From: Qipengyuania mesophila
Lineage (GTDB): Bacteria; Pseudomonadota; Alphaproteobacteria; Sphingomonadales; Sphingomonadaceae
Length of the DNA stretch: 64,000 nt
Direction of reading: 5' to 3'
Assembly: GCF_019711655.1 (NCBI RefSeq)
Contig: NZ_JAIGNU010000001.1
Location: forward strand, 1,459,501 to 1,523,500
Numbering within the stretch: the stretch's first letter is position 1; the number at the start of each line of letters is the position of its first letter. The notes beneath the pieces are model-generated. The model was given only the letters and a program-made list of their open reading frames with translations, had not been told where the DNA came from and ran no database searches. Shown here piece by piece: positions 1,865-17,996 of this stretch. The translations under genes and the position numbers were made by a program.

Positions 1865-2845
1865 TTAGATATCGCCGCCCGTAAGCCTCTGACAAATAAG
1901 GTCTAATTGATCGAGCGTCCGATAGCGGATGGTCACGCTGCCGGTGTTGGGCGTGCTCTCGGTGGTGATCTTCACCGGCATGCCGAGGAATTCCTCGAGA
2001 TGACCCTGCACGGCGGCAATGTCGGCGTTGTCTTCGCCCGTGGATGCGGCGGGCGGATTGCCCGCACCCGTGGCGGTGCTGCGCGGTTTGCGCGTCAGCG
2101 CTTCCATTTCGCGCACCGAAAGGCCGTCGGCGACCGCGCGGCGCGCGAGATCGACCGCTTCCTCGCGCCCGATGAGTGCGCGGGCATGACCCATCGACAG
2201 CGAACCATCGGCGAGCAGCGCAAGAACGGTATCGGGCAGTGCGAGCAGGCGCTGGAAATTGGCCACGTGACTGCGCGACTTGTCGACCAGCCGGGCGATC
2301 TCGGCCTGCGTCATTCCTTCGTCCTCGGCGAGCTTGTGATAGGCGCGCGCCTCTTCGACGGGATTGAGATCCTCACGCTGGAGGTTCTCGATCAGCGCCA
2401 GCGCCATCACCTCGCGCTGGTCGAGATCGCGCACCAGCGCGGGAATTTCGTGGAGCCGCGCCTTCTGCGCTGCCCGCCAGCGGCGTTCGCCCGCGACGAG
2501 GCGATAGCGACCGCGCCCGAGCGGCGTGACGATGACCGGCTGGATGACCCCGCGCGCCGCGATCGAGGAGGCGAGAGCATCGAGGCTCTCCTCGTCGAAA
2601 CGCGAGCGCGGCTGTCCCGGAAGCGGTTCGATGTCGGCTACGGGGATCGAGGCGAGCCCTTCGAGCGGTGTCGAACCCGCCGCCACGTCAGCCGGTCCGG
2701 CTGCGCCGCCGGCGTTGGCCGTCTGACCGGCCCGGACAAGCGGTTCCTCGCGCCGGGTCTCGCCCAGGAGAGCGCCCAGCCCCTTCCCAAGCTTCTTCTT
2801 GCGATCGATCGGTCGTGCTCCCGTATTCGCGGTATTCTCGCTCAT
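1865..2845 (-). CDS. parB: Chromosome-partitioning protein ParB
   Basis: A 326-residue CTP-dependent DNA clamp that loads at parS and spreads. An acidic/Ala-rich N-terminus with a Lys-rich LGKGLGALLGE motif (residues 19-29, the usual ParA-stimulating segment) precedes the ParB/Srx domain with PGQPRSRFDE (76-85) and the CTP-binding GERRWR motif (119-124). The ENLQREDLNP segment (153-162) and a helix-turn-helix (about 178-200) for parS recognition follow, then a C-terminal dimer domain. The start is the ATG at 2845, which overlaps the parA stop as ATGA. Three parS palindromes lie in the same gene block. Confidence 0.96.
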   Translation of the reverse strand: MSENTANTGARPIDRKKKLGKGLGALLGETRREEPLVRAGQTANAGGAAGPADVAAGSTPLEGLASIPVADIEPLPGQPRSRFDEESLDALASSIAARGVIQPVIVTPLGRGRYRLVAGERRWRAAQKARLHEIPALVRDLDQREVMALALIENLQREDLNPVEEARAYHKLAEDEGMTQAEIARLVDKSRSHVANFQRLLALPDTVLALLADGSLSMGHARALIGREEAVDLARRAVADGLSVREMEALTRKPRSTATGAGNPPAASTGEDNADIAAVQGHLEEFLGMPVKITTESTPNTGSVTIRYRTLDQLDLICQRLTGGDI

Positions 2846-3633
2846 GCCGCCTTCCTCTTCTCGGGCAGCCGCCCGATCAGTTCTCTTGCCAGCCCGATAT
2901 AGGCCCGGCTTCCCGGACAATTATGGTCGTAGACCAGTGCCGGCATGCCGTGGCTCGGCGCCTCCGACAGACGCACATTGCGCGGAATGACGTTCTCGAA
3001 CACGAGATTGCCGAGGCAGTCGCGCACATCGTCGGCGACCTGGTCGGTCAGCCGGTTGCGGCGATCGAACATGGTCAGCACCACGCCGACGATGCCGAGA
3101 TCGGAATTGAAGCCTTGCTGGACGCGCTCGACGGTCTGCAGCAGCTGGCTGAGGCCTTCGAGAGCGAAGAATTCGCATTGCAGCGGGACCATCAGTGTAT
3201 CGGCCGCGCAGAGCGCATTGAGCGTCAACAGGCCGAGCGAGGGCGGGCAATCGATGAAGCAGGCATCGTAACCGGCGAAACTACCGCGCGCCTGGGCCGA
3301 CAGCGCCTTGGTCAGCCGCCCGGTGCGGTCCTCGACCGACACCAGCTCGACCTCGGCGCCCGAAAGATCCTGCGTCGCGGGAACAATGTCGAGCCCGGGA
3401 ATCTCGGTTTCCTGCGCGCATTCGGCGAGGGTGGCTTGGTCAAGCAGCAGGTCGTAGCTCGTATTCTCGCGCGCCGCGCTCGGAATTCCCAGGCCCGTCG
3501 AGGCGTTGCCCTGCGGATCGAGGTCGATCAGCAGCGTCTTCCAGCCGGTCGCCGCCATCGCCGTGGCGATGTTGATGGCGGTGGTGGTCTTGCCCACCCC
3601 GCCCTTCTGGTTGGCGATTGCGATGGTGATCAT
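2842..3633 (-). CDS. parA: Chromosome-partitioning ATPase ParA
   Basis: A 263-residue Walker-type ATPase that forms the nucleoid-bound gradient pulling ParB-parS complexes during origin segregation. The deviant Walker A motif QKGGVGKTT is at residues 9-17 (signature lysine K10), with DLDPQGN at about 40-46. A GTG at 3648 could add five residues, but the ATG at 3633 overlaps the rsmG stop by four bases, as do the neighbouring junctions, so I chose it. It is co-transcribed with mnmG, rsmG and parB, the common alphaproteobacterial arrangement. Confidence 0.96.
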   Translation of the reverse strand: MITIAIANQKGGVGKTTTAINIATAMAATGWKTLLIDLDPQGNASTGLGIPSAARENTSYDLLLDQATLAECAQETEIPGLDIVPATQDLSGAEVELVSVEDRTGRLTKALSAQARGSFAGYDACFIDCPPSLGLLTLNALCAADTLMVPLQCEFFALEGLSQLLQTVERVQQGFNSDLGIVGVVLTMFDRRNRLTDQVADDVRDCLGNLVFENVIPRNVRLSEAPSHGMPALVYDHNCPGSRAYIGLARELIGRLPEKRKAA

Positions 3634-4259
3634 GACTTTTCGCTCCACTGCCCGCGGCCGACGACGATGCCCGCCTCAGGGTCCGTCAGCGATTGTTCCA
3701 CGTGAAACATGGCGCGACCGGCCCGGGGCAACCCCTGCACTTCTTGCTCTGCCGAACGCCCCTTGGGCAACACCCATGAGGTAGCGCCTGTGGAGAAGCG
3801 TGCAGATAAGCTGAGCAAACGATCGAGTGGAGCGAAGGCGCGCGCGGAGATCGTCCCCGCGGCGAAGCGCTCGACCTGCTCCAAGCGGCGACCTTCTACA
3901 CGGCAATTGGAGAGGCCCGTACGGGCCAAGGCGCGATTGAGCCATTCGACGCGCCGCTTGCGGGACTCCACGAGAACAACTGGCGCCTCGGGGCGCATTG
4001 CCGCGATCACCAGGCCGGGAAAGCCAGCGCCGCTCCCGAGGTCGAGCCAGGTACCCTCCGTGGGCGAACCTAGCGGGAGAAGCTGCGCCGAATCGGCGAT
4101 GTGCCGCTGCCAAACTGTCTCCAGCGTCGCCTTCGCGACGAGGTTCTGTTGCTGGTTTTCTTCGACCAGGTCTCCGACGAGCAAGGACAGACGGTCCATC
4201 GCCTCCTCGTCGCACAAGCTCCCGACATAGGCCCTTGCCTGTTCTTCGGACGCTATCAT
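3630..4259 (-). CDS. rsmG: 16S rRNA (guanine-527-N7) methyltransferase RsmG
   Basis: A 209-residue SAM-dependent methyltransferase of the GidB family that methylates G527 of 16S rRNA, the loss of which gives low-level streptomycin resistance in other bacteria. The SAM-binding motif [12 protein letters not shown] is at about residues 70-81, followed by VLVESRKRR. The C-terminal stretch MFHVEQ is encoded by a parS site. The ATG at 4259 overlaps the mnmG stop (ATGA), and its own stop overlaps the parA ATG. Confidence 0.95.
3694..3709. promoter_or_regulatory. parS: parS centromere site 1
   Basis: The 16-mer TGTTCCACGTGAAACA matches the bacterial parS palindrome (TGTTTCACGTGAAACA) with one change. 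It lies inside the 3' part of rsmG, about 60 bases upstream of the parA start, and encodes MFHVEQ there. ParB should nucleate on it. Confidence 0.9.
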
Positions 4260-6106
4260 GCGGCGCGATCGCGCTTGCGCGCATGAACCAGCAGGGCCGC
4301 GAGCGCCGCAGGCGTGATTCCCCGAATCCTCCCGGCCGCAGCAAGCGATTCGGGTCGCGCGAGCGACAGGCGTTCGATCATCTCGTTCGAGAGTCCGGGA
4401 ACGTCCGCAAAGGGAAAATCGGGCGATAGTGTCTGCGCCTCGCTGGTCCGCAGATCGGCGAGCTCGGCCTGCTGGCGGGCGAGATAGGGCGCGTAGAACG
4501 CATCTTCGGCCAGTTCGATGGCGAGGGGATCGGCCGGATCGACGCCCTCAAGCCAGGGCGCGAGCCCGGCGATGTCCGCATGCCCGCCTGCGAGCCAGTC
4601 CACCGCCGGACGCTGGCCGGCATCCTGTTTCACGTGAAACCCTGCCGCGACCAATTCCTTGGCGTGGATGGGGCTGGCGAGTTGTTCGTCGTATCGTGCG
4701 CGCCGCTCTTCGCGTCGCTCGTACCATTCGCTGCGCTCGCGTCCCACGAGGCCGCAAGCCATGCCCAACGGGGTAAGTCGCGTATCGGCGTTGCTGGCGC
4801 GGAGCCGCAAGCGATACTCGGCGCGCGAAGTGAGCATGCGATAGGGCTCGGTGATCCCCTGCAGCGTCAGATCGTCGAGCATGACCGCAATATAGGAGTT
4901 GGCCCGGTCGAGCGCGGCGGGCTCCATATCGAGAACCGAAGCCGCGGCTTGCATTCCCGCCACCAGGCCCTGCGCCGCCGCTTCTTCGTAGCCCGTCGTG
5001 CCGTTGATCTGGCCGGCGCAAAAGAGGCCGGGAATGGCGTGGAGTTCGAGCGAGGAACCCAGCGCGCGCGGGTCGATATGGTCGTATTCGACCGCATAGC
5101 CTGGGACGGCCATCTCGACGCGGCTCAGGCCATCCATCTCTCGCAGCATGGCGAGCTGCACGTCCGCGGGCAGCGAAGTCGAAATACCGTTCGGATAGAC
5201 CAGTTCGGTATCGAGCCCCTCGGGTTCGAGAAAGACCTGGTGCCCCTCGCGGTCGCCGAAACGATGGATCTTGTCCTCGATCGACGGGCAGTAGCGCGGG
5301 CCCGAAGCGCCGATCGCACCAGAAAACAGCGGCGAACGGTCGAGATTCGCGCGGATGATGTCGTGCGCGCGCGCGTTGGTGCGCGTAATCGCGCAGAAGA
5401 CCTGCGGATTGGCCCTGCCTTGGGTCAGCGAGGACATGGTCCATGCTTCGCCGTCAGAAGACTGTTCTTCGAGCGCTGCCCAGTCGATCGTCCGCCCGTC
5501 GAGCCGCGGGGGCGTGCCGGTCTTGAGGCGGCCCATCGGCAGGTCAGCCGCGCGCAATTGCTGCGCCAGACGGTGCGCGGCGCCCTCGCCGATCCTCCCG
5601 CCTTCGAAGCGCTCCTCGCCGCGGAAGAGCACTCCGCCGAGGAAGGTCCCGGTGCAGAGCACAACCGCCCTCGAGGCCAGTGCCGTGCCGTCGGCAAGCT
5701 CGATACCGGCGACCCTGCCCCCCTCGAGACGCAGCGCAGCCACCTCACCTGCGACCAAGTCAAGGTTCGGCTGAGCAGCAACCATCTCCTGCACGGCTGC
5801 ATGGAAGAGGTGCCGGTCGGCCTGGACCCGCGGGCCCCAGACTGCACTCCCCTTCGAGCGGTTGAGCATCCGATAGTGGATCGCCGCCGCATCGGCAGCG
5901 CGACCGATCACGCCGTCGAGCGCATCGACCTCGCGCACCAGATGGCCCTTGCCCAACCCACCGATCGCGGGATTGCAACTCATTGCGCCGATCTTGTCGA
6001 GTTCGAGCGTCACGAGCCCCGTGCGCGCACCCATCCGGGCCGCCGCGCAGGCCGCCTCGACCCCGGCATGGCCGCCGCCGACAATCAGGACATCGAATGA
6101 ATGCAT
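4256..6106 (-). CDS. mnmG: tRNA 5-carboxymethylaminomethyluridine synthesis enzyme MnmG
   Basis: A 616-residue FAD protein (GidA) that, with MnmE, installs cmnm5U at the wobble position of tRNAs. The N-terminal Rossmann motif [11 protein letters not shown] (residues 9-19) binds [13 protein letters not shown] (about 42-51) and KTGTPPR (about 196-202) are family signatures, and GYEEAAAQG precedes the C-terminal helical MnmE-binding domain. The length is normal. The FHVKQ segment in that C-terminal domain is encoded by parS site 2. Upstream of the gene are a short gap with parS site 3 and mnmE. Confidence 0.97.
4626..4641. promoter_or_regulatory. parS: parS centromere site 2
   Basis: TGTTTCACGTGAAACC matches the parS consensus at 15 of 16 positions. 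It is embedded in the mnmG coding sequence, where it encodes FHVK of GFHVKQ. Confidence 0.88.
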
Positions 6107-6152: not shown

Positions 6153-6168
6153 TGTTTCACGTGAAACA
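6153..6168. promoter_or_regulatory. parS: parS centromere site 3 (perfect)
   Basis: TGTTTCACGTGAAACA is a perfect 16-base parS palindrome in the mnmE-mnmG intergenic gap. It directly abuts the mnmE stop codon (6169-6171 on the minus strand). Confidence 0.93.
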
Positions 6169-7440
6169 TCACTTGCCGATGCAGAACCGCCCGAACAGCG
6201 CATCGAGCATTTCCTCGGTCGAATCACGCCCGACCAGCCGGTCGAGCGCATGCCGCGCGCTGCGCAGATTTTCCGCCGCCAGCAGCAGATCTCCCGTGAC
6301 CTCGACCGCTTCGATATATGTCGCGGCTGCAAGCGCCCACCCGCTTTGGCGGCGATTGAAGGCGAGCCGATCGACCGGAGGCAAGGCCGCCCGCCCCCTC
6401 TCGACGAGCAAATTCGTCAAATCATCGAGCCCCGAACCGGTTACGGCTGAAACTTCCAGGTCCGCCGCATAGTCGGGCTCTTCGAGATCGGCCTTCGAAT
6501 GGACGAGTACCGCGCCCTCCGGCTTGTCCGCAGCGTCACCAAGCCAGAGAACGATTTCCCCGCCTTGAACCGCGCGCCGGGCGCGCTCGATGCCGATCGC
6601 CTCGATGGCTCCCGCGCCCTCCTCGCGCATGCCTGCAGTATCGACCAGCACGAAGGGTATGCCACCGATCGCTACCGGGCGCTCCAGGACATCGCGCGTA
6701 GTTCCCGCCTCGGCGGTGACGATCGCCGCTTCATCGGCAAGCAAGGCATTGAACAACGACGACTTCCCGGCGTTGGGCGGTCCGGCCAGAACCACCCTGA
6801 TCCCGTCCCTCAGCCGTTCGGTCGCAGGCCGCTCAGCGACGCGATGGATGTCGCCCGCCAGTGCCCCCAGTTCATTCCCGAAATCGGCAGGCAGACTGGC
6901 GACATCGTCCTCGTCGGCGAAGTCGATCACTGCCTCGATGGCTGCAGCGAAACCCAGCAGGCGGTCGCGCCAGCCTTCAATGCGTCGCGACAATTCGCCG
7001 CCCGCAGCCATCATCGCCCCGCGGCGCTGCAATTCGGTTTCAGCGGAAAGCAGATCAGCCAGCCCCTCTGCCTCAGCGAGGTCGATCCGGCCATTGGCGA
7101 AGGCGCGGCGGGTGAACTCGCCCGGCTCGGCCTCGCGCAGCCCTTCGATCGCGCCGAGAGCAGCGAGGATGGCAGCAACGACCGCCCTGCCCCCATGGCA
7201 ATGCAATTCGGCGAGATCCTCCCCCGTCGCCGTGGCCGGGCCCGGAAACCACAACACCAGCGCGCGGTCGAGCATCTCGCCATCGCCATCGCGCAACTGC
7301 CGGAGGCGCGGCGAACGCGGCGGCGGCATCGTGTCGCAAAGCTGCGCCAGCGCCTCACCCGCGCGCGGACCGCTGATCCGGATCACCCCGATGGCGGCGG
7401 GCGGCGCCCCGCTCGACAGGGCATAGATCGTCTCGTTCAT
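6169..7440 (-). CDS. mnmE: tRNA modification GTPase MnmE
   Basis: A 423-residue homodimeric GTPase (TrmE) that works with MnmG on U34 of tRNA, using folate as one-carbon donor. An N-terminal folate-binding domain (MNETIYALSSG, about 1-115) is followed by a helical region. The inserted G domain has P-loop GPPNAGKSSLFN (about 215-226), a G2 EAGTTRD loop, DTAG (G3) and a divergent HSKAD (G4). The C-terminus is CIGK, whose Cys is a family hallmark. It is first in the leftward mnmE-mnmG-rsmG-parA-parB block, 62 bases before mnmG. Confidence 0.96.
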   Translation of the reverse strand: MNETIYALSSGAPPAAIGVIRISGPRAGEALAQLCDTMPPPRSPRLRQLRDGDGEMLDRALVLWFPGPATATGEDLAELHCHGGRAVVAAILAALGAIEGLREAEPGEFTRRAFANGRIDLAEAEGLADLLSAETELQRRGAMMAAGGELSRRIEGWRDRLLGFAAAIEAVIDFADEDDVASLPADFGNELGALAGDIHRVAERPATERLRDGIRVVLAGPPNAGKSSLFNALLADEAAIVTAEAGTTRDVLERPVAIGGIPFVLVDTAGMREEGAGAIEAIGIERARRAVQGGEIVLWLGDAADKPEGAVLVHSKADLEEPDYAADLEVSAVTGSGLDDLTNLLVERGRAALPPVDRLAFNRRQSGWALAAATYIEAVEVTGDLLLAAENLRSARHALDRLVGRDSTEEMLDALFGRFCIGK

Positions 7441-7809: not shown

Positions 7810-8508
7810 ATGAGCGAGACCGTCACCATCGAAACCCTCTCGGGCAACGACAGCTTCACCGCCTATGTCGCCCGACCGGCCGACAGCCCGCGCGCCGCAA
7901 TCGTCGTCATCCAGGAGATCTTCGGGGTCAACGCCGGCATCAGGCGCAAATGCGACCGGCTAGCCGAGGAAGGCTATCTCGCGGTCGCGCCCGACCTGTT
8001 CTGGCGCCTCGAACCGGGAGTCGAGCTCGATCCCGATGTCGAACCCGAATTCCAGCGCGCGCTCGACCTGATGGGCAAGTTCAACCAGGACCAGGGCATC
8101 CGCGATATCGAGGCGACGATCCATCACATCCGCAACACCGAGGGCGTGCCCAAGGTCGGCTGCGTTGGCTACTGCCTCGGCGGCCGGCTTGCCTACATGA
8201 CCGCGGCACGCACCGACGTGAACGCCAGCGTCGGCTATTACGGCGTCGGCATCGACGGCCTGCTCGGCGAGAAGCACGCCATCGCGCATCCGCTCATGCT
8301 GCATATCCCGACCGAGGACGGCTTCGTCGACAAGGACACCCAAAAGGCCATGCACGACGGCCTCGACGACCATCCCAAGGTCACGCTCCACGATTACGAG
8401 GGCCTCGACCACGGCTTCGCCACCGAGTTCGGCAAACGCCGTAGCGAGGAAGCGGCCCAGCTGGCCGACAAGCGCACGGCGAAGTTCTTCGCCGAACACC
8501 TCGGCTGA
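7810..8508 (+). CDS. Dienelactone hydrolase family protein
   Basis: A 232-residue alpha/beta hydrolase of the dienelactone hydrolase family. The nucleophile is C122 in GYCLGG, as in carboxymethylenebutenolidase. The likely acid is D170 (PTEDGF) and the base H201 (LDHGFA). The catalytic set is therefore complete, but the natural substrate cannot be told from sequence, because most chromosomal members do not degrade chloroaromatics. Its TGA shares a base with the ATG of the next gene (TGATG), so the two are probably translated together. Confidence 0.88.
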   Translation: MSETVTIETLSGNDSFTAYVARPADSPRAAIVVIQEIFGVNAGIRRKCDRLAEEGYLAVAPDLFWRLEPGVELDPDVEPEFQRALDLMGKFNQDQGIRDIEATIHHIRNTEGVPKVGCVGYCLGGRLAYMTAARTDVNASVGYYGVGIDGLLGEKHAIAHPLMLHIPTEDGFVDKDTQKAMHDGLDDHPKVTLHDYEGLDHGFATEFGKRRSEEAAQLADKRTAKFFAEHLG

Positions 8509-10136
8509 TGCGCAACCTCGCAAGGATTCGCGGATCCTCGGAGCTGCTGATGCGCTTCGGGCCGACGGTGTCGGTCCTGCTCCTGACCAGCGTCTTCGCC
8601 ATCGTGACACCCCTCCGTGGGGGCCTGTTCGTCACCATGCCGCTGCTGATCCTTGCTGCTTACGACCTGCTCCAGCGGCGCCACACGCTGTGGCGCAACT
8701 ACCCGCTGCTGGCGCATATTCGCTGGATCATGGAAGACCTGCGGCCCTATGCACGCGCCTATTTCGTCGAAGGCGATCTCGAGGGGCGGCCCTTCAACCA
8801 CGACCAGCGATCACTGGTCTACGCCCGCGCCAAGGGACAGCTCGATGCGCACCCCTTCGGGACCGAGCTTGACGTTTATTCCGCTGAATATCAATGGCTT
8901 GCTCATTCCATCGTACCGAATGAAAGGGCCGAGATCGAATGGCGGGTCGATGTCGGGGGGCAACAATGCGCCCGGCCCTACTCCGCTTCGCTACTCAACA
9001 TCTCGGCGATGAGCTTCGGCTCGCTGTCGGCCAATGCGATCATGGCGCTGAACAAGGGCGCGGCGGCGGGCAATTTCTATCATGACACCGGCGAAGGTGG
9101 CTTGTCGCGTTATCACCGCTCGCACGGAGGCGACCTCGTCTGGGAAATCGGCAGCGGCTATTTCGGTTGCCGCGACGACGACGGCAATTTCGATCCGGCC
9201 CGCTTCGCCGACACCGCGCAGGCCGACCAGGTCAAGATGGTCGAGATCAAGCTCAGCCAGGGCGCCAAGCCCGGCCACGGCGGGGTCCTGCCCGGCGCCA
9301 AGGTAACCGAGGAGATCGCCGAAGCGCGCGGCGTACCGGTAGGCAAGGACTGCATCAGCCCGGCCGCCCACTCGACATTCTCGACTCCCACCGAACTGCT
9401 CGAATGGGCAGCCAGGCTCCGCGATCTGTCGGGCGGAAAGCCGGTCGGCATCAAACTCTGCGTCGGCAAGCCGCACGAGGTCTTCGCGATCATGAAGGCC
9501 ATGCGCGAGACCGGCATCCGGCTCGACTACATCGTCGTCGACGGGGCCGAAGGCGGGACCGGCGCCGCACCAGTCGAATTCTCCAACCGCGTCGGCATGC
9601 CGCTGCGCGAAGGGTTGATCATCGTTCGAAACGCTCTCGTCGGCACGGGTCTCAAGGGCGAGGTCAAGCTCGCGGCGGCGGGCATGGTCCACTCGGGCGC
9701 CGGCATGGCGATGAATCTCGGGCTTGGTGCCGACTGGTGCAATGCGGCCCGGGCGATGATGTTCGCCCTGGGGTGCGTCCAGTCGATGAAGTGCCATACC
9801 GATGCCTGCCCCACCGGCATCGCGACGCAGGATTCGACTCGCCAGCGCGGCCTGGTCGTCGGCGACAAGGCCGAACGTGTCGCTCGTTTCCAGCGTCACA
9901 CGCTCCATTCGCTGCGCGAGATGGTGGTCGCCATGGGCCTCGACAATCCGTGGCACATCGAACCGTGCCACATCTCCGAACGGCTCGATTCCGCCCGCGC
10001 GGCGAGCATCGACCATATCTACAGCTTCCTCGAACCGAACCAGCTGCTCGACGATCCCGGATCGACGCCATATGCTGCCGATTGGGACGCCGCACAGGCG
10101 GCTAATTTTGGGGAGGCGACATGTCGGCAGAACTAG
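8508..10136 (+). CDS. FMN-binding glutamate synthase-like (GltS domain) membrane protein
   Basis: A 542-residue protein with one or two N-terminal hydrophobic segments (residues about 17-50) followed by the FMN-binding TIM barrel of glutamate synthase. Visible features are SLLNISAMSFGSLS near 165, KPGHGGVLPGAKV, VVDGAEGGTGAAP and a Cys cluster ALGCVQSMKCHTDACPTGIAT near 420-440 that matches the 3Fe-4S ligands of GltB. The glutaminase domain is absent, so it is not a full GOGAT. Members are annotated as FMN-binding glutamate synthase family; the electron donor and substrate are unknown. It is coupled to the upstream hydrolase and the downstream NTF2-like gene. Confidence 0.85.
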   Translation: MRNLARIRGSSELLMRFGPTVSVLLLTSVFAIVTPLRGGLFVTMPLLILAAYDLLQRRHTLWRNYPLLAHIRWIMEDLRPYARAYFVEGDLEGRPFNHDQRSLVYARAKGQLDAHPFGTELDVYSAEYQWLAHSIVPNERAEIEWRVDVGGQQCARPYSASLLNISAMSFGSLSANAIMALNKGAAAGNFYHDTGEGGLSRYHRSHGGDLVWEIGSGYFGCRDDDGNFDPARFADTAQADQVKMVEIKLSQGAKPGHGGVLPGAKVTEEIAEARGVPVGKDCISPAAHSTFSTPTELLEWAARLRDLSGGKPVGIKLCVGKPHEVFAIMKAMRETGIRLDYIVVDGAEGGTGAAPVEFSNRVGMPLREGLIIVRNALVGTGLKGEVKLAAAGMVHSGAGMAMNLGLGADWCNAARAMMFALGCVQSMKCHTDACPTGIATQDSTRQRGLVVGDKAERVARFQRHTLHSLREMVVAMGLDNPWHIEPCHISERLDSARAASIDHIYSFLEPNQLLDDPGSTPYAADWDAAQAANFGEATCRQN

Positions 10137-10516
10137 GGCTGAAACGCTGGCACGAGGTGATCGAAAGCGGTTCCTCGCCCCAGGCGCTCTCTGCCATCAT
10201 CCACGAAGACGCGGTGTTCCACTCACCCGTTGTCCATACGCCGCAAAGGGGCCGCGCGATCGTGGTCGCCTATCTCTCGGCTGCGGGACAGACTCTCGGC
10301 AACGACAGTTTCGAATACGTTCGCGAACTGGTCGACGGCGAGAACGCCATGCTTGAGTTCACCACCGAGATGGACGGCATCCACGTCAACGGGATCGACC
10401 TGATCCGCTTCGACGCGGACGGTATGATCGTCGATTTCAAGGTGATGGTGCGCCCGCTGAAGGCGGTGAACAAGGTGTGGGAGCAGATGGCCGCGCAGCT
10501 CAAGTCGCAGCAATAG
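10121..10516 (+). CDS. NTF2-like (SnoaL-fold) protein
   Basis: A 131-residue single-domain protein of the nuclear transport factor 2-like fold, a cone-shaped alpha+beta barrel used by many small enzymes and binding proteins. The pattern is an N-terminal helix with WHEVIESG, then AIIHEDAVFHSPV, and beta strands ending in GMIVDFKVMVRPLKA. It starts inside the last 16 bases of the upstream gene. No catalytic assignment is possible; a role with the hydrolase and FMN protein is inferred only from linkage. Confidence 0.72.
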   Translation: MSAELGLKRWHEVIESGSSPQALSAIIHEDAVFHSPVVHTPQRGRAIVVAYLSAAGQTLGNDSFEYVRELVDGENAMLEFTTEMDGIHVNGIDLIRFDADGMIVDFKVMVRPLKAVNKVWEQMAAQLKSQQ

Positions 10517-10534
10517 GAAGCCGCTGACGGTCTG

Positions 10535-10918
10535 TTAGGCTTGCAGGAAACGCCCGATTTCCACGGCGAATTTTTCGTCCAGCCCGGCGGCGCGCATTGC
10601 ATCGGTTAGTTCGGCAATTGCCTGGTCGTCAGAGCCGATGCGCTGCATGCGCCATTTGGGAAAACATCGCCGAGATGCCGGAGTGTCCACGAGCACTTCG
10701 ACATCGTGGTGACGCGGATCCTTTGCGAGTTGGCTCAGCAGCACTCCGAGATTCTCTTGCGGGCCCTCGATGAACTGCAGGAATCGGCCCGCTTTGTAGA
10801 GCAGGAACCCGGTGACATCGCGTTCGGGATTGTTCCGGGCCGAAACCTCGATGACCTTGAACAGATCGTCCGAACGGAAATCGTCGGAGGCCACCGACCG
10901 GTAGAGAATTCGATGCAT
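10535..10918 (-). CDS. Stand-alone BLUF blue-light sensor
   Basis: A 127-residue protein made of one BLUF domain, which binds FAD and senses blue light. The photocycle residues line up: Y6 in ILYRS, N29/N30 in ARNNPERD, Q48 in RFLQFIEG, and W89 in FPKWRMQ. These are shifted by two from the residues of cyanobacterial PixD, to which short BLUF proteins belong. I chose the start MHRILYRS at 10918; an 18-residue N-terminal extension is possible. No output domain is fused, so it should act through a partner. It lies downstream of rho on the same strand. Confidence 0.88.
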   Translation of the reverse strand: MHRILYRSVASDDFRSDDLFKVIEVSARNNPERDVTGFLLYKAGRFLQFIEGPQENLGVLLSQLAKDPRHHDVEVLVDTPASRRCFPKWRMQRIGSDDQAIAELTDAMRAAGLDEKFAVEIGRFLQA

Positions 10919-10987
10919 CGCTAGACCTTGCGCCTTTCTTTGACGGGAAAGCCTCGTCTCGCAGAAGCGCAAGGCATGAGCGAACGC

Positions 10988-12253
<1,266 letters not shown>

Positions 12254-12449
12254 ATGTTTTACTCGGTATTCGGGTTTGGATGGCCGGCGGGTCGGTAAGG
12301 GCTTGGAGAAAGCGGACCCGGCCTCGTGGGAGACGAAGCCCGTAGCCGGTAGATGGTGTGCAGTTACGCCCGCGCAGATGGGGCGTCAATTCACAAAGCG
12401 ACGTGTGGTTTCTCGGCGGCTACGAGCACCGCATTCGGTGCGGCACGCG

Positions 12450-12893
12450 TCAGAAGGGTTTGACGACGACCAGCACGACGATGATCGCCAGCGCGATCCC
12501 CGGGAACTCGCCCCAGATCCGCAGCTGCTTCTCGGTCATCGGTCGTTCGCCGGCGGCCATCTTCTTCGACCGGGCGACCATCATGCCGTGGAATGCCGTC
12601 AGAGCCACGACAATGGCCAATTTGGCGTGGAACCATCCCTGGCTCCATGCGCCGATCGATTGTGCCAGCAGCAGGCCCAGAACCCAGACCACGATCACGC
12701 TGGGGGTGAGAATGACCTTGCGCAGCAGCCCCATCCGCTTCGCCCACAGCGCCGCTTCCTCGGATTCGGGCGCGGCGGAATGGAGGTAGATCATCTGGCG
12801 CGGCAGCATGAACAGGCCCGCCATCCAGAACACCATGAAGATGATGTGGCCGGCCTTGATCCAGTAATAGGTCATCGCGAGGACATCCTGCAT
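12450..12893 (-). CDS. hemJ: Protoporphyrinogen IX oxidase HemJ
   Basis: A 147-residue membrane protein of the HemJ (UPF0093) family, the oxidase many alphaproteobacteria use instead of HemG or HemY. About four helices are visible. The heme-linked histidine motif IKAGHIIFMVFWMAGLF is near the N-terminus and WFHAKLAIVVALTAFHGMM lies mid-protein. I chose MQDVLAMTYYW at 12893; an ATG six codons later has a better-placed AGGA, and a GTG at 12917 is also possible. It follows hemE by about 33 bases, two neighbouring steps of heme synthesis. Confidence 0.85.
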   Translation of the reverse strand: MQDVLAMTYYWIKAGHIIFMVFWMAGLFMLPRQMIYLHSAAPESEEAALWAKRMGLLRKVILTPSVIVVWVLGLLLAQSIGAWSQGWFHAKLAIVVALTAFHGMMVARSKKMAAGERPMTEKQLRIWGEFPGIALAIIVVLVVVKPF

Positions 12894-12926
12894 CGCGCCA
12901 TCATGTAGGGATCGCACATGCCCGCG

Positions 12927-13952
12927 TCACCCCTCGAAAGCGCGGACGACCGCGATCAGCCGCTCGACATGCTCGATCGGCGTCCGGCGATCGATCCCGT
13001 GGCCGAGATTGAAGACATGCGGCCGGTCGGCGAAGGCCTCGAGGATGAAACGGGCCCGGCTCTCGAGCCGGTCGCTTCCCGCGAGCAGCAAAAGCGGATC
13101 GAAATTCCCCTGCACCGGCATCCCGGCTGGTAGCTCGCGCGCGGCCCAGACCGGATCGATCGTCTCGTCGACTCCGACCGCCTGCACCCCGGTCTCGCGC
13201 GCATAGGCGGGAAGCTTCTCTCCCGCGCCCTTGGGAAAGCCGATGACCGGCGTATCGGGGTGCTTCTCGCGCAGTGCCGCGACGATCCGCGCATTGGGTG
13301 CGATCACCAGCCGCTCGAATTCGTCGGGTGCCAGGCTGCCCGCCCAGCTGTCGAACAATTGTACCGCTTCCGCACCCGATTCGATCTGGCCCGAGAGATA
13401 TTCGATAGTCTCTGCAACGATCCGGTCGAGGATTGCATCGAGCTTCGCAGGATCGCGATAGGCCATCGCGCGCGCCTCGTGCTGATCGCGGCTGCCCTCG
13501 CCCGCCACCATGTAGGTCGCGACCGTCCACGGGCTACCCGCAAAACCGAGCATGGTCGTTTCCGCGCCCAGCCGTTGGCGACAGAGGCGCACCGTTTCGT
13601 AGATCGGCTCGTAGCGCGAGCGGTCGGGGGTGAGCCCTTCGAGCTCCGCATCGACCAGCGGCGGCGACAGCTTGGGTCCTTCGCCTGCCAGAAATTCGAG
13701 ATGCTGGCCCATCGCATGCGGCACGATGAGAATATCCGAGAAAAGGATCGCCCCGTCGAAGCCGAAGCGATCGATCGGTTGCAGCGTGATCTCGCAGGCT
13801 GCCTCGCTGTCGTAGGCCATGGCGAGAAACCCGCCCTTCTCTTCCCGCAGCGCGCGATATTCGGGCAGATAGCGACCGGCCTGGCGCATGAGCCAGAGGG
13901 GTACGCGATCACCGCGTTTGCCATTCAGCGTATCGAGGAGGAGACCGGGCAT
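12927..13952 (-). CDS. hemE: Uroporphyrinogen decarboxylase HemE
   Basis: A 341-residue enzyme converting uroporphyrinogen III to coproporphyrinogen III in the cytosol. The N-terminal signature PLWLMRQAGRYLPEYR (about 18-33) carries the substrate-binding arginines. AILFSDILIVPHAMG contains the catalytic Asp, and GFAGSPWTVATYM and NLGHGI are also present. A TTG at 13964 could extend it by four codons, but the ATG at 13952 fits the family. It points away from the probable replication origin, directly on its left flank. Confidence 0.96.
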   Translation of the reverse strand: MPGLLLDTLNGKRGDRVPLWLMRQAGRYLPEYRALREEKGGFLAMAYDSEAACEITLQPIDRFGFDGAILFSDILIVPHAMGQHLEFLAGEGPKLSPPLVDAELEGLTPDRSRYEPIYETVRLCRQRLGAETTMLGFAGSPWTVATYMVAGEGSRDQHEARAMAYRDPAKLDAILDRIVAETIEYLSGQIESGAEAVQLFDSWAGSLAPDEFERLVIAPNARIVAALREKHPDTPVIGFPKGAGEKLPAYARETGVQAVGVDETIDPVWAARELPAGMPVQGNFDPLLLLAGSDRLESRARFILEAFADRPHVFNLGHGIDRRTPIEHVERLIAVVRAFEG

Positions 13953-14237
13953 CGAGGAGTCCAATCCAATAAATAATGATATTTATATAAGGGTTGAAGG
14001 AGTCTGTTGGCCCTGTGGATTTCAGGGATAACCGGGCCCTGCCCGATTTCTCCCGCGCTGCAAAGGGCCGAAGCCGGATTGCGACTCGCCAGCGTGCATG
14101 AGTCGAGTCAAACTTATCCTCGCTGTCCCCACCCCTGCGCATAAATCACATTTGCTGTGCGGGAATCGCCCCGTGAATGACTCGCATTGGGGAGGCTTTT
14201 CCGTCCCGAACTTGTCGCCAGCTTTCTCCCGTGGTTT
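13953..14237. other. oriC: Probable chromosomal replication origin (oriC) region
   Basis: This 285-base gap separates leftward hemE from rightward PPSR-maf-aroE-coaE-dnaQ, the known location of the origin in Caulobacter and proposed for alphaproteobacteria generally. It holds a very AT-rich tract (13967-13990, aataaataatgatatttata...), a hairpin CCCTG/CAGGG at 14011-14027 with TGTGGATTT in it (14014-14022, reverse of AAATCCACA), and TTATCCTCG at 14114-14122. TTCTCCACA at 14248-14256, just inside the next gene, fits the DnaA box at 8 of 9. The individual boxes are weak; the call rests mostly on gene order, divergent strand bias and nearby parS. Confidence 0.6.
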
Positions 14238-15116
14238 ATGCCTCGCGTTCTCCACAGGCCGCAGGACCCCGAAATCTCCAACCGCGTCCATCTCCATCTC
14301 TTGTCCGACTCCACCGGCGAAACGCTCGAGATGCTCGCCAAGGCAGCGCTCGCGCAGTTCGAGGATGCCGATGTCGTGCGCCATTTCTGGCCGATGGTGC
14401 GCAGCCGCCAGCATCTCGAACGGATCCTCCCCGAACTCAAGGCCAATCCGGGCTTGGTGCTGTTCACGCTGGTCAATCCCGAGACCCGCGAAAGGCTCGA
14501 GGAGGCCTGCACCCAGCTCGGCCTGCCGGCGGTGCCGATTCTCGATCGGGTGACCGAGGCTTTGGAAAAGGCGCTGGGGCAGGAGGCGCATGGCCGGCCG
14601 GGGCGGCAGCACGCGATGGACCAAGCCTATTTCGCCCGGGTCGAGGCGATCCAGTTCACCATCGCGCATGACGACGGGGTGGGGTGGGAGAATTGGGACG
14701 AAGCGGACATCGTGCTCGCCGGTGTCTCGCGCAGCTCGAAGACGCCGACCAGCATCTATCTCGCCAACCGCGGCTACAAGGTCGCCAATATCCCGCTGGT
14801 GGTCGAAAGTCCGCCCCCGCCCAAGTTGTTCGAACTCGAACGCGCAATGGTGGTTGGCCTCACCACCGCCCCCGAGCGGCTGGTCCAGATTCGCCGCAAC
14901 CGACTGCTGACGCTCAACGAAGAGCGCGAAACGCATTATGTCGACAACGAGCGCGTGAAGGACGAGGTCAAGTTCGCGCGGAGGATGTTCGCCGACAATG
15001 GCTGGCCGGTGATCGACGTCACCCGCCGCTCGATCGAGGAGACCGCCGCGGCGGTGATCCGCCTCTATAACGAACGCGAAGCGCGGGGCACGCGCCAAGG
15101 AGCCAAGCCGATATGA
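14238..15116 (+). CDS. Pyruvate, phosphate dikinase regulatory protein (DUF299/PPSR family)
   Basis: A 292-residue bifunctional kinase/phosphorylase family member (PPSR/PSRP) that toggles PPDK or PEP synthase activity by threonine phosphorylation. Visible motifs are [13 protein letters not shown] (about 18-30), [10 protein letters not shown] and the nucleotide-binding [20 protein letters not shown], then [12 protein letters not shown] at the C-terminus. I chose the ATG at 14238 (MPRVLHRP); in-frame TTG at 14187 would extend it into the origin region. Its TGA overlaps the maf ATG. This is the right-hand neighbour of the origin, as in Caulobacter. Confidence 0.88.
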
Positions 15117-17917: not shown

Positions 17918-17996
17918 TTGGGGCCCGATCGGAAACCGACGGGCGGGCTGGCGAGTTGGGATCGCACGGGGGACGGTAGAAGGAGAAAACGCCAAG

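Follow-up and report, generated by a model that had tools for sequence, protein, structure and literature searches.

A probable chromosomal replication origin with a dense cluster of GANTC sites between hemE and the PPSR gene of Qipengyuania mesophila

The stretch of DNA analysed here (the window) comprises 64,000 nucleotides of contig C1 of Qipengyuania mesophila (G000:C1:1459501-1523500), whose genome of 3.13 Mb is distributed over 7 contigs. In this window, hemE (12927-13952, minus strand; TIGR01464, 384.6 bits) and a PPSR gene (PF03618; 14274-15116, plus strand) diverge from an intergenic gap. The PPSR coordinates are counted from 14274, where an AUC start is proposed; the first in-frame ATG is located at 14238. 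To the left of the gap, the minus strand carries parB (1865-2920), parA (2842-3648), mnmG (4256-6106), mnmE (6169-7440), rho (10988-12253), and hemE; to the right, the plus strand carries PPSR, a maf-like gene, aroE, coaE, and dnaQ, as well as genes for an S30AE protein and a thioesterase. This is the gene order that an earlier sequence-only reading had likened to the Caulobacter origin neighborhood, except for rsmG, which is unconfirmed: the respective frame (3676-4344, minus strand) gave zero matches. The same reading had held that conserved genes point away from the gap on both sides. Most of them do, but a GltB-like gene (8508-10136, plus strand) is oriented toward the proposed origin while its neighbors are not; it matches the glutamate synthase large subunit model only partially and far under the cut-off. 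A gene for a BLUF blue-light sensor (10535-10972, minus strand) adjoins rho.

The gap occupies the conserved alphaproteobacterial hemE position. Sixty-one genomes were searched for PPSR, of which G055 had no PPSR match and G049 has a contig that begins at the locus. In all 60 testable related loci (from 59 genomes, the locus of the window being counted), hemE and a divergent PPSR gene bracket the gap, whose size is 315-514 bases when measured to PPSR codon 15. The same flanks were found in 79 of 80 named loci, the remaining one (L106) being cut off by a contig end, and in 20/20 distant loci of the family; the named and related-loci sets share some members. Among the best matches listed, PPSR is 91-93% identical to the proteins of Qipengyuania species. 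Conservation of the gap among relatives, which the sequence-only reading had demanded of an origin, was indeed observed: the gap DNA is present beside PPSR in 22/22 same-genus genomes searched, and the 14 order-level genomes of the same search gave chance-level matches only. Compared to six relatives the gap is 70-89% identical and is as conserved as the flanking genes (hemE 76-83%, PPSR 79-85%), the other stretches compared being 10160-10980 (38-66%; partly the BLUF gene), 17918-17996 (37-73%), and 12260-12925 (67-78%). The conserved unit extends beyond 14237 to approximately 14256, and TCCACAGGGCCAACAGACTC, a conserved sequence, occurs only once in its own genome with up to three mismatches allowed. 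Rfam gave zero matches in the window at gathering thresholds.

From hemE outward, the gap contains an AT-rich tract, a nearly G-free tract, a GC cluster, and a putative DnaA box. The AT-rich tract (13968-13990; 22 of 23 positions are A or T), which is AT-rich in relatives too, is a candidate DNA unwinding element. It is followed on the minus strand by the G-free tract with a period of three (13991-14008) and by the GC cluster GGGCC (14009-14013), found in all 38 genus sequences and directly adjoining putative box 1 (14014-14022, minus strand, AAATCCACA; plus strand TGTGGATTT). The TCCACA core of box 1 is kept in 38/38 genus sequences, and core and GC cluster together occur in 79/79 named gaps, but in this form in only 1/20 distant gaps of the family. 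A weak putative box 1b (14023-14031, minus strand, TTATCCCTG) abuts box 1; it has three mismatches to TTATCCACA, and its TTATCC start is shared by 14/38 genus sequences. Putative box 2 (14114-14122, plus strand, TTATCCTCG) is also weak, with the TTATCC start in 24/38, and putative box 3 (14248-14256, plus strand, TTCTCCACA) retains a TCCACA core in 36/38 genus sequences and 72/79 named gaps. The AT-rich tract and the sequences of boxes 1, 2, and 3 had already been pointed out in the sequence-only reading and are located at these positions. Its impression that the boxes are individually weak and the box set unusual was borne out as well: an exact TTATCCACA is present at site 1 in 2/38 genus sequences versus 13/22 gaps from other families of the order, where every gap (22/22) holds at least one box with at most one mismatch. 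The three putative boxes are conserved in place, although their number is at chance level, with three sites of at most one mismatch to TTATCCACA in 64 kb and 2.97 expected. A hairpin (CCCTG-N7-CAGGG), likewise proposed at first as part of the origin, exists in the window but in only 14/38 genus sequences, and was rejected as an origin element.

The published rule for DnaA-trio elements requires at least three consecutive trios within 16 bases of a box (PMC8287927). Two consecutive motifs, not three, are found in the window, and the rule is passed by 2/38 genus, 17/79 named, and 9/22 order-level gaps, compared to shuffle averages of 7.2, 14.2, and 8.4, respectively. The G-free tract is therefore not called a DnaA-trio element and is trio-like at best. 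Its period of three exceeds that of shuffles (0/500 in each of three sets, the sequences in each being related), and in the genus set a lag of seven equals the lag of three in height. CtrA sites (TTAA-N7-TTAA) are absent from the gap, which lacks any TTAA, and no match to the IHF consensus was found in it.

On the side of PPSR, a candidate promoter element (TTGTCG-17-TTTATG; 14212-14240, plus strand) is directed toward this gene. The spacing TTGTCN-17-TTTAT is invariant in 79/79 named gaps and was found in none of the 20 distant gaps of the family; a consensus-based promoter and terminator scan of 13800-14400 called none. Transcription from this element would start near box 3. In the Qipengyuania clade, translation of PPSR apparently starts at AUC, AUU, or AUA. 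Among 38 distinct clade sequences from 50 loci (L002-L030, L064-L084), codon 13 (14274-14276) is ATC in 22, ATT in 13, ATA in 2, and CTG in 1, and never ATG, GTG, or TTG. Conservation of codon positions 1 and 2 jumps at this codon, and no codon pattern is seen upstream. In L002-L030, TTTAT and codon 15 are separated by 39, 40, or 41 bases, which breaks the frame, and L080 carries an in-frame TGA ahead of codon 13. A Shine-Dalgarno-like four-mer precedes codon 13 by 3-10 bases in 19/32 distinct sequences (1000 shuffles: mean 2.7, maximum 8) and is missing in 13/32, the sequences being related to each other. ATG, GTG, or TTG occurs at or near the place of codon 13 in many sequences from other genera, as well as in several of the more remote members of the genus set. 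Codon 13 may alternatively be an internal isoleucine codon, because most sequences contain an in-frame ATG, GTG, or TTG further upstream. For sigR of Streptomyces, a conserved GTC start is reported whose use is held down by initiation factor 3. Titles and abstract openings of the literature yielded nothing on PPSR start codons, which does not establish absence from print.

The strongest signal of the gap, absent from the sequence-only reading, is a cluster of seven GANTC sites, the target of the cell-cycle methylase CcrM, within 285 bp. These are site 1 (GAGTC, 13957-13961; conserved in 24/38 genus sequences), site 2 (GAGTC, 14000-14004; 34/38), which is located next to box 1 within the G-free tract, site 3 (GACTC, 14083-14087; 38/38), the abutting sites 4 and 5 (GAGTCGAGTC, 14100-14109; 37/38 and 34/38) just ahead of box 2, site 6 (GAATC, 14163-14167; 28/38), and site 7 (GACTC, 14179-14183; 29/38). 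Seven sites were reached by 0/20000 letter shuffles of the gap. With the surroundings of the gap excluded, no other 285-bp step of the window reaches five, and the maximum per step is five over 340 kb of samples from this genome and four over 400 kb of its relative G014. The 79 named gaps contain 425 GANTC sites versus an expectation of 57.4 based on the remainder of each locus, a 7.4-fold enrichment that lies above expectation in 79/79; the ratio to shuffled gaps is 4.35. Six of seven base-permuted control palindromes had ratios of 0.53-1.27, and the seventh, AGNCT, reached 3.32, for which its overlap with the conserved AGACTC is the probable cause. The 20 distant gaps of the family hold 91 sites versus approximately 14.4 expected, and all 20 exceed expectation. 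In other families of the order, 20/22 gaps have only 0-3 sites, whereas two loci from one genus of another family (L042 and L055) have 13 each; the enrichment is thus not order-wide. The hemE-PPSR gaps of these two loci also contain many near-boxes. The genome encodes GcrA as well as a methylase that, like CcrM, combines PF01555 and RAMA domains.

GC skew was determined from 20-kb samples of four genomes rather than from whole-chromosome sums. In 4/4 genomes mean skew is positive to the right of the gap and negative to its left. Samples were positive on the right and negative on the left in 9/10 and 8/10 cases, respectively, for G014, in 8/10 and 8/10 for G004, in 9/10 and 7/10 for G031, and in 3/3 and 9/11 for the own contig C1, and equally extreme values occurred in 3 (G014), 83 (G004), 528 (G031), and 353 (C1) of 20000 permutations. 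The best antipodal fit places the origin at 2170-2295 kb in G014 (gap at 2185 kb) and at 1950-2065 kb in G004 (gap at 1996 kb), so that it includes the gap in two of the three single-contig genomes. In the third, G031, the best fit is at 2340-2470 kb and the gap at 2568 kb; this distance of approximately 100-230 kb counts against an origin in the gap. Within the 64-kb window the skew is flat. A skew minimum elsewhere had been named in the sequence-only reading as an argument against its proposal, and the sampled skew, with a change of sign in four genomes and an offset in G031, does not refute it.

The parAB genes and three parS sites (3694-3709, 4626-4641, and 6153-6168; 0/100 shuffles reach three) are located 8-12 kb from the gap. 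A dif site, which would have placed the terminus, was not found in any of 10 genomes with up to three mismatches to a consensus that may be wrong for this group, and this negative result counts against the proposal. In bacteria in general, the origin tends to lie beside dnaA. That it does so here is hardly credible: dnaA is approximately 532 kb away from the gap, its 4368-base locus holds a single near-box, and skew along contig C1 stays mostly negative from dnaA up to the gap. A position of dnaA distant from the origin has also been published for Sphingomonadales (PMC8116508).

The gap might instead serve only as a conserved region of divergent promoters for hemE and PPSR that is read by CcrM and GcrA, with the origin elsewhere. 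The promoter-like element of fixed spacing in 79/79 named gaps, the chance-level number of DnaA boxes, and the known targeting of GANTC at promoters by GcrA (PMC8116508) would fit such a role. However, it would account neither for the switch of skew near the gap in four genomes nor for putative boxes that are conserved in place and exact in 13/22 gaps of other families, nor for the parS sites close by, and this explanation is very improbable. Synteny, skew, parABS, and conservation all support the proposal of the sequence-only reading, and we are highly confident that the gap between hemE and PPSR is the chromosomal replication origin. The predicted oriC region (13953-14273) is bounded by the start codon of hemE and the start proposed for PPSR, and 13953-14237 very probably represents the core of oriC in this Qipengyuania-like chromosome. 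As an origin type it is already known, because hemE-COG1806 origins have been published and a hemE-side oriC has been predicted for most Sphingomonadaceae (PMC4741004). Titles and abstract openings contained no report on the origin of Qipengyuania or on GANTC at sphingomonad origins; this does not establish absence from print.

The role of the GANTC cluster in this predicted origin is more ambiguous. There is an even chance that the sites serve transcription of hemE and PPSR through GcrA and have no part in initiation. Site 1 is close to the promoter side of hemE and site 7 to that of PPSR, and C. crescentus without CcrM is reported to have a normal DNA content profile (PMC3973325), a result that bears directly on this question and determined the weight given to this possibility. 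The scarcity of GANTC in other families of the order also counts against a methylation step. In contrast, the best-kept sites (14000 and 14083-14109; 34-38 of 38 genus sequences) lie beside boxes 1 and 2, which is no more than suggestive of a function in initiation.

If the gap functions like known origins, DnaA would bind box 1, assisted by the weaker boxes 1b, 2, and 3, and would spread from there, over the GC cluster and the G-free tract, to reach the AT-rich tract next to hemE. The latter would then melt and take up the helicase. CcrM would methylate the dense GANTC sites, which would become hemimethylated when the origin fires. Through GcrA, hemimethylation could signal to the flanking promoters how much time has passed since firing, and it might do the same for access of DnaA. 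Taken further, the origin might double as a methylation-timed switch in the family of the host: CcrM sites, approximately sevenfold denser than background, stand beside boxes 1 and 2, the promoter of fixed spacing would start transcription at box 3, and PPSR in Qipengyuania would additionally be held down by a conserved AUC, AUU, or AUA start, a type of codon disfavored by initiation factor 3. Firing would thus be tied to the adjacent regulator of pyruvate and phosphoenolpyruvate metabolism. This combined scheme is speculative and, as a whole, rather unlikely. A precise and testable predicted origin is available for Qipengyuania, and the strong enrichment of GANTC in the examined sphingomonad gaps makes CcrM timing of initiation directly testable outside Caulobacter. 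If the AUC, AUU, or AUA start of PPSR is genuine, its retention across the clade would make it one of the rare examples of conserved non-canonical initiation.

Compared to known systems, the arrangement of a box, a GC spacer, a strand-biased tract of period three, and then AT-rich DNA resembles the basal unwinding system, but the window has two instead of three consecutive trio motifs, and its relatives pass the rule no more often than shuffles. The origins of Caulobacter crescentus (Cori) and Rickettsia (hemE/COG1806) are described as having both divergent flanking genes, an AT-rich tract, and DnaA boxes (PMC1914354). The gap shares the flanking genes and the AT-rich tract and has putative boxes, and GANTC sites are known from the Caulobacter origin as well (PMC3973325). 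Unlike Cori, the gap has no CtrA or IHF consensus site; moreover, it differs from the Caulobacter and Rickettsia origins in that its boxes are only weak, dnaA is far away, and GANTC is denser than in any other stretch sampled. The closest counterparts are the oriC predictions near hemE for Sphingopyxis and other Sphingomonadaceae (Ori-Finder, DoriC; PMC4741004), which agree in position, conserved putative boxes, and a putative DNA unwinding element. The GANTC cluster, the GC cluster, and the fixed promoter-like element are features described in the present analysis.
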